Assembly: GCA_016213015.1 (NCBI GenBank)
Contig: JACRCE010000022.1
Span: 1-45,486, forward strand
Origin: Deltaproteobacteria bacterium
Lineage (GTDB): Bacteria; Desulfobacterota; GWC2-55-46
Length of the DNA: 45,486 nt
Direction: 5' to 3'
Under the pieces are notes generated by a model. It saw only the letters and a program-made list of their open reading frames with translations, was not told where the DNA came from and did no database searches. Made by a program: the position numbers and the translations under genes. Within the stretch, counting starts at the first letter, position 1. The number at the start of each line of letters is the position of its first letter. Below, one piece after another: positions 18,742 through 23,075 of this stretch.

Positions 18742-19608
18742 ATGAAAGAGCTGACCAACTGGCTCATGGAAATAGAAAAACGCGCCGCCGTCATGTATGA
18801 AGAGGCCGCAAAACTGTTAAGCGCCGACGCGGACCTGTCCGCGCTCCTCAAGCGCCTTGCCGTTGACGAGTGGATGCACCTTGATACGTTGAAAGGAGCG
18901 ACGCACATCCTTGACGAACTGCCCGACCCGGGCGTGCCGCTTATCCGCCTTGACGAGGAGACCAAGGCTGGGATAGCGTCCGGCTTCATATCATGCGAAT
19001 GCCGGATAAAGGACAAGAGCCTGTCGAAAAACGCGATGCTCGATTGCTTGGTGGCAACGGAATTTTCGGAATGGAACGGCCTGTTCCTGTACGTCGTCAA
19101 CGCGCTCGGCAGGAGGGACGGCGCATATACGGCCGTCAAGCCGAAGATGCAACAGCATAAAAGACTGATCGAGCGGTACTGCTCTTCGCTCCCCGACGCC
19201 GATGTCTACCTGAAGAAGATAGCGCAACTGCCCATTGCGTGGCGAGAAAAGCTGCTTGTGGTGGACGATTACGCGATGATAACGGACATGCTCACAGCGC
19301 TCCTTGAGGATGAAGGCGCGATAGACGTGGCGCGAAACGGCATGGAGGCGCTCGAAAAACTCAAGACCAACTACTACGCGGCCGTCATCAGCGACGTTGA
19401 CATGCCGGTAATGAACGGGGTGCGGCTCTTTGAAGAAGCAGTAAAGATATATCCGGCCGTCTCGGAGCGATTCCTGTTCTTCACCGGTTCGATGGATGAC
19501 GAACGCACGGATTTTTTTTCAAAAAACAGGATCAAATACATCGTTAAGCCCGCAAGGGTCGGAGATATCAGGAAGGCCGTGGCCCGGATACTGTCGAGGC
19601 AGGGCTGA
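18742..19608 (+). CDS. Ferritin-like domain fused to a response-regulator receiver
   Basis: 288 residues. Residues about 1-150 are all-helical and look like a ferritin-like four-helix bundle: helix 1 with E12 and Y19, helix 2 with E43-x-x-H46 (EWMH), helix 3 with E107/E110 (ATEFSEWNGL), helix 4 with H139 but Met at the position of the expected Glu (MQQH). Residues about 168-286 form a receiver domain with intact D175/D176, phosphoacceptor D218 (ISDVDMP), T248 (FFTGS) and K269 (VKP). I know rubrerythrin-like sensors, but this arrangement is unusual. It may couple iron, peroxide or oxygen status to phosphosignalling; that is inference. No kinase adjoins it. Moderate Shine-Dalgarno (GAGG). Confidence 0.7.
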   Translation: MKELTNWLMEIEKRAAVMYEEAAKLLSADADLSALLKRLAVDEWMHLDTLKGATHILDELPDPGVPLIRLDEETKAGIASGFISCECRIKDKSLSKNAMLDCLVATEFSEWNGLFLYVVNALGRRDGAYTAVKPKMQQHKRLIERYCSSLPDADVYLKKIAQLPIAWREKLLVVDDYAMITDMLTALLEDEGAIDVARNGMEALEKLKTNYYAAVISDVDMPVMNGVRLFEEAVKIYPAVSERFLFFTGSMDDERTDFFSKNRIKYIVKPARVGDIRKAVARILSRQG

Positions 19609-19629: not shown

Positions 19630-20685
19630 CTATCGCATCTTCTTGTATTTCGCCGAGACCTTCTTGAAAAAATATTTCGGGTCCTGCCTGAGGAGAGTCA
19701 TGTATTTGCTGATTATCGCCGACCTCTTCGGCGCGGGGTTATCGGAGCACCACGGAGAACACCATATATAATCGTTATTCATCACCTTCTTCTGAAAGGC
19801 GCGCAATTCGGCTCCCTTCAATATCTCATCCATCCCCGCCTTGTAGGTATTACCTATGACCTTCCATGACTGACAACAGACGAGAACGTCTCCGTTGAAG
19901 TCCACGAGAAGATGATTGAACGGCACTGGGCAGACCTTATTCGGCTTATGGCTGATCGACTCGGAGATGTCCATGCCGAACTTCCTTGCAAATACGTCAA
20001 GGCCTGCGACGCGCATCTTGAGCCTGTCTATCGTTTCCTGCGCCTTTGAAAGCAGGCGCACCATCTCCGCCCGCTTAGGGAGTCCGTTGAAACTCAGGAT
20101 GGGATCGATGATATACTCGACAAAATCCACCCCGAGCTTCTTGCCAAGCTCCACAATGGCGGATAGCTCCAGCGCGTTTTGCGCGACGATTACAGAGGAT
20201 ATCGAGACAACGGGTTTGTCTCCGCGTCTCGCCTTTATAAGCATTTCAATATTTTTCAACGCGCTTGGGAAGTTTCCGTGCTTGACGATCATGTCATACG
20301 CCTGTGCGCTTGCGGCATTGAGCGAGAAATTTATCCTGCTGCTTTGATTAACGAACGTATCCATCCAGAAGTCGCTGACGCGGATGCCGTTGGTCGTTAT
20401 ATCGAGTTTTACTCCGTTGAATTGACGGATGTGTCCTGCGAATTCAGCGCAATTCGGCATTATCGTAGGCTCGCCGCCCTGTATCCGCACGTGCTTCAAA
20501 GATGGATATAAACCCGCGAGGTGTTCAAGATAGATAACGGGCGGCATATTGTGCTTTGTGCTGAAGTCGGTCTGATAGCACATAACGCATCTCGCGTTGC
20601 ATTGCCAGCCCATGATAAGATGAAGACCTGTAACGCCGGTATCTATGTTAGTCAAATGCGCCCTCCTCTTATCTTCGATAATCAT
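19630..20685 (-). CDS. Radical SAM protein with SPASM-like C-terminal domain
   Basis: 351 residues. N-terminal radical SAM core with cluster motif CNARCVMC, GGEPTIMPNC (GGE motif), DITTNGI and NFSLNAAS. The C-terminal part carries CPVPFNHLLVDFNGDVLVCCQSW and a WCSPWCSDN cluster, typical of SPASM auxiliary Fe-S sites; a basic tail follows. SPASM proteins modify peptides or proteins or act in cofactor and nucleoside pathways; no precursor peptide gene is visible next to it. ATG 20685 overlaps the stop of the upstream diguanylate cyclase gene by 4 nt, making it the last gene of the selA-yqhA-GGDEF-radical SAM chain. Confidence 0.88.
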   Translation of the reverse strand: MIIEDKRRAHLTNIDTGVTGLHLIMGWQCNARCVMCYQTDFSTKHNMPPVIYLEHLAGLYPSLKHVRIQGGEPTIMPNCAEFAGHIRQFNGVKLDITTNGIRVSDFWMDTFVNQSSRINFSLNAASAQAYDMIVKHGNFPSALKNIEMLIKARRGDKPVVSISSVIVAQNALELSAIVELGKKLGVDFVEYIIDPILSFNGLPKRAEMVRLLSKAQETIDRLKMRVAGLDVFARKFGMDISESISHKPNKVCPVPFNHLLVDFNGDVLVCCQSWKVIGNTYKAGMDEILKGAELRAFQKKVMNNDYIWCSPWCSDNPAPKRSAIISKYMTLLRQDPKYFFKKVSAKYKKMR

Positions 20686-22607
20686 GCGCCTTGATCGCTC
20701 TGTTCGCCTGAGTCTTGCCTCGCCATTGCCTGCGCGTTTTCCGCCATGACCAGCCTGTCGCGCCCTTGGGCCTTGGCCTTGTAGAGCGCCTCGTCCGCGG
20801 CGTTGATCACGTCCCTTGCGTTAAGCCCGTTATCAGGATAGATTGCCGCGCCGACGGATACCGTAACCGCGCCGAGCAACTTGCCGCCATAGAGCAGTTG
20901 GAGGCGCCGGACGGCCAGCCTTATCTGCTCGCCCATCCTGCACGCCGCCTCGATGGCGCCATCGGGCAGTATCACCGTGAACTCTTCGCCTCCGTAGCGG
21001 CAGGCTATGTCGCTTGCGCGTATGTTCTGTTGCAGTATCCCGCCCAATTCACGGAGGAGCATGTCCCCTGCTTCATGCCCGAACGTGTCGTTGTAGTCCT
21101 TGAAGTGGTCGAGGTCGAGCATCAGCACCCCGATCGGGACGTTCTTCCTCTTGGCCCTGTGTATCTCCCTTTCAAAGGACTCCTCCATGTAGCGCCTGTT
21201 GAAAAGGGAGGTAAGCGGGTCGCGGATGGAAAGGTTACGAAGGGTCTGTCTCAATCTTATGTTGGCAAGCTCAAGCTCGGCGTGTTCTGAAAGGCCGGTC
21301 AAAAGCCGCTCCCTGTCCTGCATCGTCTCATCCGGGATATGCGCGCCGTTCGAATCGGCCAGCGACAGATGCAGCACCCCTATCATGTCTCCCTGCGCCA
21401 TCATGGGCACGCACAGGTATGGCCCGTCCTTCTTCACATGCGCGCATCTTACGCCGGCGGACGGTCCGTTTACGGAATACCTCTTTCCGCGCCGTATGGC
21501 CCAGCAGTCCTCCGGCGCGAACACCCGCTCCTCGGGCGAATCGGGTCCCCATACGCTCATGGCGTCGAGAATATTTCTCGACGGATTCATTATGAACATG
21601 GCGCCGGAATCGTCCGGGAAACATTTTCCGCCATACTGAGCTATAACCGTATACGCCTCCTCGGCGCTGATACAGGTCCTGAGCGCGTCTCCGGCCTCGC
21701 GTATCATGGTTATCTCGTAGTTGAGGCATTCGAGCTTGGTGGCGCGAAAGATAAGCTCCGTATTGGCGTCGCTTAGCGCAAGTGTGCGCTCGGCTACCTT
21801 GGACTCAAGCTCGTCCTTTGTCGCGATCAACTCCGCATCCATCCGTTTTCTTTCCGTTATGTCGCGGATGAAGTTGAAAAAACAACCGTTGTCCACGTTC
21901 ATGTAGTTGACGCTTATCTCAACGTCGACTATGGTCCCGTCCTTCCTTCTATGCTTTGTTTCGAAACGGTCGCTCCCGGCCTCGACGATCTTTTTCATAT
22001 GCGCCTGAACGCTCGATCGGTCTTCCGCGGCCTCTATATTCCACACGCCCATGTTCAGGAGTTCTTCCCTTGCGTAGCCGATGATGCGGCAGTAGGCGTC
22101 GTTCATATCGGTAAAGCGCCCTTCCCTGTCAACGATGCAGAAACCGTCCATCGTGGTTCTGAGGATGATCTTATGCTCCTCCTGAAGCGCCTTTTCCCGG
22201 GCGACCTCGCTCAACAATCGTGAGTTGGCATCCGTCAACTCCATTGTGCGTTCGGCTACGATGCGCTCCAAGTCATCGGCGGCCTTCAATAGACATGCTT
22301 CGAACCGTTTCCTTTCGTTGAGATGCAGGATGAGCGGCTTAAGGACAAGGTAATAGAGCACCGGGCTGATGAGCGCCACGAGAAAAAGCGCGTCGAATAT
22401 TATCTCTATCCATTTATCGGGGAACGGCGGCAGTACCAGGATGGCCAGCATGGAGAGCAGCTCTGCGATGAATATCGCAAAGGCGATGATGACGACCATC
22501 CTCAAAGGGGACTCCTGATGGCGCGTCATGCCGTTGCCCAACGGGTCGGATGTCCGTCCCTTGCCGTCGAGATCCGACAATGGTTTCGATGTCTTGTGCG
22601 TTTCCAT
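20682..22607 (-). CDS. Membrane diguanylate cyclase, PAS-GAF-GGDEF
   Basis: 641 residues. Two membrane helices (about 31-55 and 68-90) precede a coiled coil, a PAS domain (about 145-255, with GFCIVDREGRFTDMNDAYCRIIGY and an FIRDITERKRMD exit), a second coiled coil, a GAF domain (about 310-450, with CVPMMAQGDMIGVLHLS) and a GGDEF domain (about 470-630). The active site YGGEEF is intact and is preceded at the right distance by an RASD inhibitory I-site, so active, product-inhibited c-di-GMP synthesis is likely. ATG 22607 with AAGGAC upstream; 12 nt after yqhA. Together with the HD-GYP protein at 3.6 kb it gives both arms of c-di-GMP turnover in this window. Confidence 0.95.
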   Translation of the reverse strand: METHKTSKPLSDLDGKGRTSDPLGNGMTRHQESPLRMVVIIAFAIFIAELLSMLAILVLPPFPDKWIEIIFDALFLVALISPVLYYLVLKPLILHLNERKRFEACLLKAADDLERIVAERTMELTDANSRLLSEVAREKALQEEHKIILRTTMDGFCIVDREGRFTDMNDAYCRIIGYAREELLNMGVWNIEAAEDRSSVQAHMKKIVEAGSDRFETKHRRKDGTIVDVEISVNYMNVDNGCFFNFIRDITERKRMDAELIATKDELESKVAERTLALSDANTELIFRATKLECLNYEITMIREAGDALRTCISAEEAYTVIAQYGGKCFPDDSGAMFIMNPSRNILDAMSVWGPDSPEERVFAPEDCWAIRRGKRYSVNGPSAGVRCAHVKKDGPYLCVPMMAQGDMIGVLHLSLADSNGAHIPDETMQDRERLLTGLSEHAELELANIRLRQTLRNLSIRDPLTSLFNRRYMEESFEREIHRAKRKNVPIGVLMLDLDHFKDYNDTFGHEAGDMLLRELGGILQQNIRASDIACRYGGEEFTVILPDGAIEAACRMGEQIRLAVRRLQLLYGGKLLGAVTVSVGAAIYPDNGLNARDVINAADEALYKAKAQGRDRLVMAENAQAMARQDSGEQSDQGA

Positions 22608-22619
22608 AAGTCCTTGGCC

Positions 22620-23075
22620 TTAGTCCTTGCCGCCGAAGTGAGAAAAACCTATCAGGGCAACGGCAACGACGCCGATGGCAATGCCGAACATCAGGGTTGC
22701 CTGCGCGTCCCTCCACTGCGCGAGACGCTCGAGAAACGTAACGGCCATTACAAGGATGATCACGCCGCTCAACTTGGCTTTGAGGTCATGAAGATTATGG
22801 ATCACGAGCCACTCCGGCAGTTCAAGCTCGCCGATGAAAAGCTCGTACAGTCCAACGGCGAAGATATAAAGGGCCGTGGCTATCAGGAAGGTATCCATAA
22901 CGGATATAAGCTCAACGCCTATGCCGTGGGCCTCTGAGCCGAAACTCGACGCGATGTGGATTACGGCAACTACGGTCTTGTACGCGCCCCAAATGAAGGC
23001 GGCCAATGCCGCGACTACGGACGAGACCACGGCAATCAGTATGAGCTGCCTTGACTTACTCAGCAGTTGTTTCAT
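22620..23075 (-). CDS. YqhA/UPF0114 family membrane protein
   Basis: 151 residues, four predicted membrane helices (about 10-30, 58-80, 105-120, 128-145). Family features: SRQLILIAVVSSVVAALAAFIWG start, ISVMDTFLIATALYIFAVGLYELFIGE and WLVIHNLHDLKAKLSGVIILVMAVTFLE. UPF0114 proteins are uncharacterised inner-membrane proteins. ATG 23075 overlaps selA by 4 nt, so its translation is coupled to SelA. There is no established link between UPF0114 and selenium. Confidence 0.9.
   Translation of the reverse strand: MKQLLSKSRQLILIAVVSSVVAALAAFIWGAYKTVVAVIHIASSFGSEAHGIGVELISVMDTFLIATALYIFAVGLYELFIGELELPEWLVIHNLHDLKAKLSGVIILVMAVTFLERLAQWRDAQATLMFGIAIGVVAVALIGFSHFGGKD

Follow-up and report, generated by a model that had tools for sequence, protein, structure and literature searches.

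A conserved fusion of a ferritin-like, rubrerythrin-type domain to a response-regulator receiver in Deltaproteobacteria

The gene at 18742–19608 of the window (the whole stretch of 45,486 nucleotides analysed) encodes a fusion protein, in which an N-terminal helical domain (residues 1–167) is followed by a C-terminal receiver. The fusion of the two domains is real and conserved. The same architecture was found in 72 non-redundant full-length homologues, which were 278–361 aa long and shared 24–45% identity with the window copy (median 35%). The best explanation of the protein is that of an orphan response regulator whose domain order is inverted and which has no output domain besides the ferritin-like N-terminal domain. 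The gene and the features discussed below are as follows.

18742–19608, plus strand: ferritin-like/receiver fusion gene, 288 aa, ATG-initiated open reading frame
18742–19242, plus strand: N-terminal ferritin-like (rubrerythrin-type) domain, residues 1–167; PF02915 in relatives, matches to 2fzf and other ferritin-like PDB profiles, AlphaFold2 helices
18775–18777, plus strand: codon of E12, putative ligand in helix A; E in 67/72 homologues
18796–18798, plus strand: codon of Y19, with the E+7 spacing of sulerythrin E20/Y27; Y in 71/72
18868–18879, plus strand: codons of E43-x-x-H46, putative ligands in helix B; E in 71/72, H in 66/72
19060–19077, plus strand: codons of E107-x-x-E110-W-N112, putative ligands and conserved Asn in helix C; E107 in 72/72, E110 in 69/72, N112 in 68/72
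19147–19158, plus strand: codons of M136-x-x-H139 in helix D, His kept and canonical Glu replaced by Met; H139 in 71/72
19249–19605, plus strand: C-terminal receiver (REC), about residues 170–288; PF00072 match and VIA-align

The open reading frame check gave a stop-free frame of 288 codons plus the stop, and a GAGG resembling a ribosome-binding site was read 8 nt 5' of the ATG. No site was obtained in a sigma-70 scan. A 441-aa antisense frame across the N-terminal domain was taken as chance. The N-terminal domain was present in 37 of 59 related genomes when searched with the single sequence, and in 38 of 59 with a profile. Furthermore, full-length relatives occurred at nine loci of the species-level collection, including several named Deltaproteobacteria, one metagenome bin labelled Nitrospirae and one labelled Planctomycetota. 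In the phylum-wide search with the N-terminal domain, 196 of 395 genomes gave matches at E ≤ 0.001, mostly weak ones in short stand-alone frames. Nearly all of the strong matches lay in receiver-bearing frames of 280–390 codons, and strong fusions outside the class were few and patchy among these genomes. The homologue at L058 was excluded, as a poly-C run (L058:8180–8200), probably an assembly or sequencing error, interrupts the gene.

A ferritin-like, rubrerythrin-type ancestry of the N-terminal domain, which a first-pass annotation had called ferritin-like from the letters of the sequence, is supported by Pfam matches in relatives, PDB profiles, hhalign and structure comparison. It could not be confirmed from the window copy alone, since its N-terminal domain had no match among the ferritin-like families of Pfam (PF02915 included) at a limit as loose as E ≤ 1; the confirmation came through the relatives. 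The window protein also gave no Pfam match to RUBY_RBDX or PF01814, and a search with the single N-terminal sequence gave neither a PDB match nor a plasmid match. PF02915 (Rubrerythrin) was matched by the N-terminal domains of 25 of 37 relatives at E ≤ 1, with a best value of 1.9 × 10−8. Accordingly, the profile search suggested in the first-pass annotation succeeded for the relatives and failed for the window copy itself. In the PDB profile search with the N-terminal domain, 2fzf led at 3 × 10−7, and a de novo diiron protein was also matched. In addition, hhalign of the domain against the rubrerythrin-like proteins of the same genomes gave an E value of 2 × 10−6 and a probability of 89% over 144 columns, and the comparison with classical rubredoxin-bearing rubrerythrins was not significant (E 0.013, probability 3%). 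A weak hemerythrin match was obtained by Pfam in one family member, and only two His residues of the N-terminal domain were conserved across the 72 homologues.

The whole protein was modelled by AlphaFold2 from an input of nine sequences, with a mean pLDDT of 85.8 and a pTM of 0.63. The helices of the N-terminal domain covered residues 2–25, 30–51, 72–90, 96–107, 110–123 and 127–148, with pLDDT mostly 76–96, and helix C was broken at 108–109, at the ExxE motif. The helices were in ferritin-like order, and only 72–90 was unexpected for a plain four-helix bundle. This extra helix lies in the B–C crossover and raises the number of main helices in the model from four to five. The model of the isolated N-terminal domain, built with no alignment, was poor, with a pLDDT of 53. 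When this low-confidence model was compared by VIA-align, ferritin-like proteins made up nearly all of the best 50 rows, such as YciF (2gs4; Z 9.8, rmsd 3.8 Å, 138 residues) and rubrerythrin (1b71; Z 8.0, rmsd 3.6 Å, 124 residues). VIA-align carries a warning on helical bundles, and with the poor model these rows are support and not proof. The Foldseek hits of the same model were non-significant, with the regulatory CZB domain of DgcZ first (E 0.84). With the whole model, receivers took up the Foldseek and VIA-align lists, which were rejected as evidence on the N-terminal domain. The structure prediction proposed in the first-pass annotation is thus suggestive of a ferritin-like fold, by the order of the helices and the rows of the low-confidence model, with an additional helix in the crossover. 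The sequence evidence for the ferritin-like ancestry is stronger than that from structure comparison.

The metal-ligand-like residues of the first-pass annotation (E12, E43, H46, E107, E110 and H139) and the Met in place of the fourth-helix Glu (M136) were all found where they had been placed. The six putative ligands E12, E43, H46, E107, E110 and H139 were kept together in 64 of the 72 homologues, and at least one was missing in the remaining 8. All six were among the ten least variable of the 166 positions of the N-terminal domain (hypergeometric probability of about 8 × 10−9 if positions are independent). At position 136, 69 of the 72 homologues had I, M, V, L, F or A, and none had E or D. 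The ligand pattern is therefore beyond chance. Met in place of the fourth-helix Glu, seen before in the one sequence, thus turned out to be a rule of the family (acidic in 0/72) and not a quirk of the window copy. The word "degenerate", which had been offered for this ferritin, is probably wrong, since the site shows strong conservation and retains, if E110 is counted, four Glu and two His. Residues 129, 132/133, 136, 139, 143 and 146 were conserved as hydrophobic or His, and 142 was variable and mostly polar; from this helix phase, 136/139 was read as the position of the canonical ExxH pair. The register of helix D is not fixed by the profiles, as hhalign sets H139 against a Glu of the rubrerythrin-like group. 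Stand-alone rubrerythrin-like proteins from other lineages of the same phylum (L149, L150, L152, L154 and L156) also had the His of helix D and no Glu three residues before it, which suggests that the site may have changed before the fusion arose.

We infer that these residues probably hold a two-metal, probably diiron, site resembling that of sulerythrin, with the bridging Glu of the fourth helix lost. The ligands of sulerythrin are E20, E53, H56, E92, E126 and H129, of which E53 and E126 are bridging (PMC9589262, PMC12851003). Furthermore, its E95 lies near the dioxygen species and hydrogen-bonds the O2 or peroxide ligand, and Tyr27 belongs to the modelled site (PMC9589262, PMC12851003). Like sulerythrin and the erythrin domain of rubrerythrin, the fusion family has a Glu with a Tyr at +7 in helix A, ExxH in B, ExxE in C and a His in D, a mapping based on pattern and residue order and not on 3D superposition. 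It differs from sulerythrin in that the equivalent of E126 was never acidic and nearly always hydrophobic. Compared with rubrerythrin (PF02915), the fusion protein lacks a rubredoxin domain and carries the crossover helix 72–90 and a receiver. By definition it falls outside the rubrerythrins, which carry ExxH in both the second and the fourth helix (2-His-4-carboxylate): ExxH is present in the second helix, but the fourth-helix Glu is missing, there is no C-terminal rubredoxin such as classical forms have and, in the window copy, no Pfam match.

The receiver had been described as complete, and this was supported by both Pfam and the residues in place. Response_reg (PF00072) was matched at residues 172–280 with an E value of 2.7 × 10−13 and a score of 50.5 bits, above the gathering score of 30.2. 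Solved receivers matched the whole-protein model with VIA-align Z values up to 18.9. The acidic pair D175/D176, the phospho-acceptor D218, T248 and K269 were all present in the window copy, at the positions given before. D218 was conserved in 68 and K269 in 69 of the 72 homologues, and the full ligand set occurred together with an intact receiver in 56. In the genome G037, two fusion genes stand in tandem at L134:1465–2382 and L134:2450–3340 (L134, L169). Gene 1 keeps EEHEEH at the ligand positions and has Ala at the position of D218; in gene 2, the ligand positions read DRSERR and the receiver is intact. Such reciprocal loss was seen only in this pair among the tandem copies. This single case is what would be expected of a division of labour in which one copy is the metal module and the other the phosphorylation module.

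The window copy stands alone, with a divergent DUF3108 gene on one side and a convergent radical SAM gene on the other, and an operon reading was rejected for these orientations. On the minus strand, 19630–23075 encodes a radical SAM/SPASM protein, a PAS-GAF-GGDEF protein and a UPF0114 membrane protein, which adjoin the fusion gene. The neighbours of fusion genes differed widely among the relatives. In L051, the order was Fur family, hemerythrin, the fusion gene at a distance of 25 bp from it, rubrerythrin, AhpC, Rrf2, COX3 and COX1, with an SCO1-type gene further along that was assigned by similarity to L206 and L167. In L206, Rrf2, COX3, COX2, COX1, UbiA/CtaB, SCO1 and the fusion gene followed one another on a single strand. 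In L167, the fusion gene was followed by a 93-aa frame, SCO1 and COX1, and MsrA lay on the opposite side. Across 38 genomes, COX1 was found within 12 kb of 11 of the 66 fusion genes, with at least 1.8 expected (an expectation that is slightly low), and 6 of the 66 had MsrA within 3 kb, with 0.11 expected. The COX1 link came from g6, g7, g10 and L051, and that of MsrA from g10 and g19. Both linkages are only suggestive, because they come from few, phylogenetically non-independent genera and the choice of families followed the inspection of the neighbours. The connection with oxygen, peroxide or iron raised in the first-pass annotation is thus suggested by the neighbours in some relatives, but the window copy had no oxygen- or iron-related neighbour, and MsrA was not found in its genome at the threshold used. 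For histidine kinases, L166 had an apparent operon of a histidine kinase, an NtrC-type response regulator, ThiE and the fusion gene, and a histidine kinase also lay near the fusion gene in L167 and L192.

Two small proteins were also observed near fusion genes. An uncharacterised protein of about 150 aa with the motif SGWLxRxGRFYGCPxxxHDxLA was encoded one or two genes away at seven loci in several genera, and the two members checked had no Pfam match. A 90-aa protein with Cys pairs (CFHCKK...CPxCG...CLNC) was convergent to the fusion gene, and the one member checked had no Pfam match.

L159:6620–7057, minus strand: SGWLxRxGRFYGCPxxxHDxLA protein, about 150 aa
L186:4665–5138, plus strand: the same
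L188:5012–5473, plus strand: the same
L193:3637–4089, minus strand: the same
L195:3991–4443, plus strand: the same
L205:3970–4602, plus strand: the same
L214:1593–2045, minus strand: the same
L177:6399–6671, minus strand: 90-aa Cys-pair protein
L178:5234–5503, plus strand: the same
L179:6048–6317, minus strand: the same
L205:5652–5927, minus strand: the same

The mechanism favoured here, tentatively and at a little short of an even chance, is that of an orphan response regulator in which a metal domain responsive to O2 or peroxide would control a receiver phosphorylated in trans. After the loss of the fourth-helix bridging Glu, E110, the counterpart of sulerythrin E95, would take a coordinating or gating role. 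The reaction of the metal site with O2 or H2O2, or the loss of iron, would change the bundle, and the changed bundle would alter the phosphorylation of the receiver or its choice of partner. The phosphorylation itself would be carried out by a separate histidine kinase, and exposure to oxygen or peroxide would in this way be tied to the phosphorelay. The direction of the signal, from the metal domain to the receiver, is the least certain step. It is doubtful that the protein is a diiron sensor, non-heme and derived from ferritins, with a ligand set rearranged by loss of the bridging Glu of the fourth helix and retention of the Glu pair of helix C, in which O2 or peroxide would set the phosphorylation state of the receiver without a dedicated sensor kinase. 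The main rival to the favoured mechanism is an unlikely one, in which the receiver takes the input and its phosphorylation gates the ferritin-like domain as the output, for instance a peroxidase, a ferroxidase or an O2-reducing diiron enzyme that a histidine kinase would switch on. The two cannot be separated by sequence, as they have the same anatomy. In response regulators, the receiver usually controls an effector domain, which counts for the gated output, as do the retention of all usual ligands but one and the detoxification genes adjoining the fusion gene in L051. However, effectors are usually C-terminal to the receiver and the domain order is reversed here, one of the two bridging Glu of such diiron proteins is absent throughout the family, and the protein has no rubredoxin or other electron-donor domain, nor a redox partner constantly adjacent to it.

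The conserved residues might instead bind a single Fe, Mn or Zn ion, or answer to metal availability and not to O2, as a sensor of iron or zinc levels or as the seat of a structural metal that holds a dimer for the receiver, which is judged distinctly unlikely. A one- or mixed-metal site is plausible because the lost fourth-helix Glu corresponds to a bridging ligand in sulerythrin, whose own crystal site is Zn/Fe (PMC9589262). On the other hand, six near-invariant potential ligands exceed the needs of one metal, and the neighbours in relatives point to oxygen and peroxide, with one Fur-family gene among them. That functional metal binding has been lost, leaving the bundle to serve the receiver only in dimerisation or kinase docking, is improbable. 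Single ligands are gone beside an intact receiver in a few members (among the 8 homologues that lack at least one), and gene 2 of G037 would fit such a relic, but the retention of all six residues in most homologues despite the low identity to the window copy argues against it, and gene 1 of G037, with its ligands kept and no phospho-Asp, reads better as a division of labour. Least probable is a helical bundle of another kind (HPt-like, hemerythrin-like or CZB-like) with a coincidental metal pattern. The lack of a family match for the window copy alone, the CZB hit in Foldseek and the weak hemerythrin match could be taken in its favour, but PF02915 in the relatives, the PDB profiles, hhalign and nearly all VIA-align rows say ferritin-like.

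Soluble diiron bundles on signalling domains are represented by the hemerythrin-domain sensors, such as the chemoreceptor DcrH and the hemerythrin diguanylate cyclases, described in a review (PMC9388753). These bundles report O2 or redox state, and the fusion protein may work likewise. Hemerythrin ligands are five His, one Glu and one Asp, and the outputs are chemotaxis or c-di-GMP, whereas the fusion protein has another fold and a receiver. In a term search, the review showed no response regulator. The fusion protein is not a hemerythrin sensor, as the fold and the ligand set are different. In the globin-coupled O2-sensing two-component systems AfGcHK and NmpRSTU, O2 acts through a phosphorelay on respiratory and hemerythrin genes (PMC11841059). 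The heme sensor of these systems is on the histidine kinase, whereas the putative non-heme metal bundle is on the receiver protein. Like CheY-like receivers and the C-terminal receivers of hybrid kinases, the fusion protein has a complete receiver and no DNA-binding output, but a ferritin-like domain replaces the kinase core or the DNA-binding domain. None of the titles and abstracts searched describes a receiver or kinase to which a ferritin-like or rubrerythrin domain is attached, which is weak evidence with subscription journals mostly outside the scope.

Where gas or redox state is known to feed into two-component systems, the kinase usually carries the input. If the favoured mechanism is true, a rubrerythrin-type site on a receiver would be an added route for O2, peroxide or iron state into phosphotransfer, and the input would sit on the receiver side of two-component signalling. 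The lineages concerned are ones in which genes for O2 defence and terminal oxidases sometimes adjoin the fusion gene. Moreover, the natural ligand variants, namely the family-wide loss of the Glu and the reciprocal tandem pair, would offer a test of the requirements on a diiron site for signalling as opposed to catalysis.
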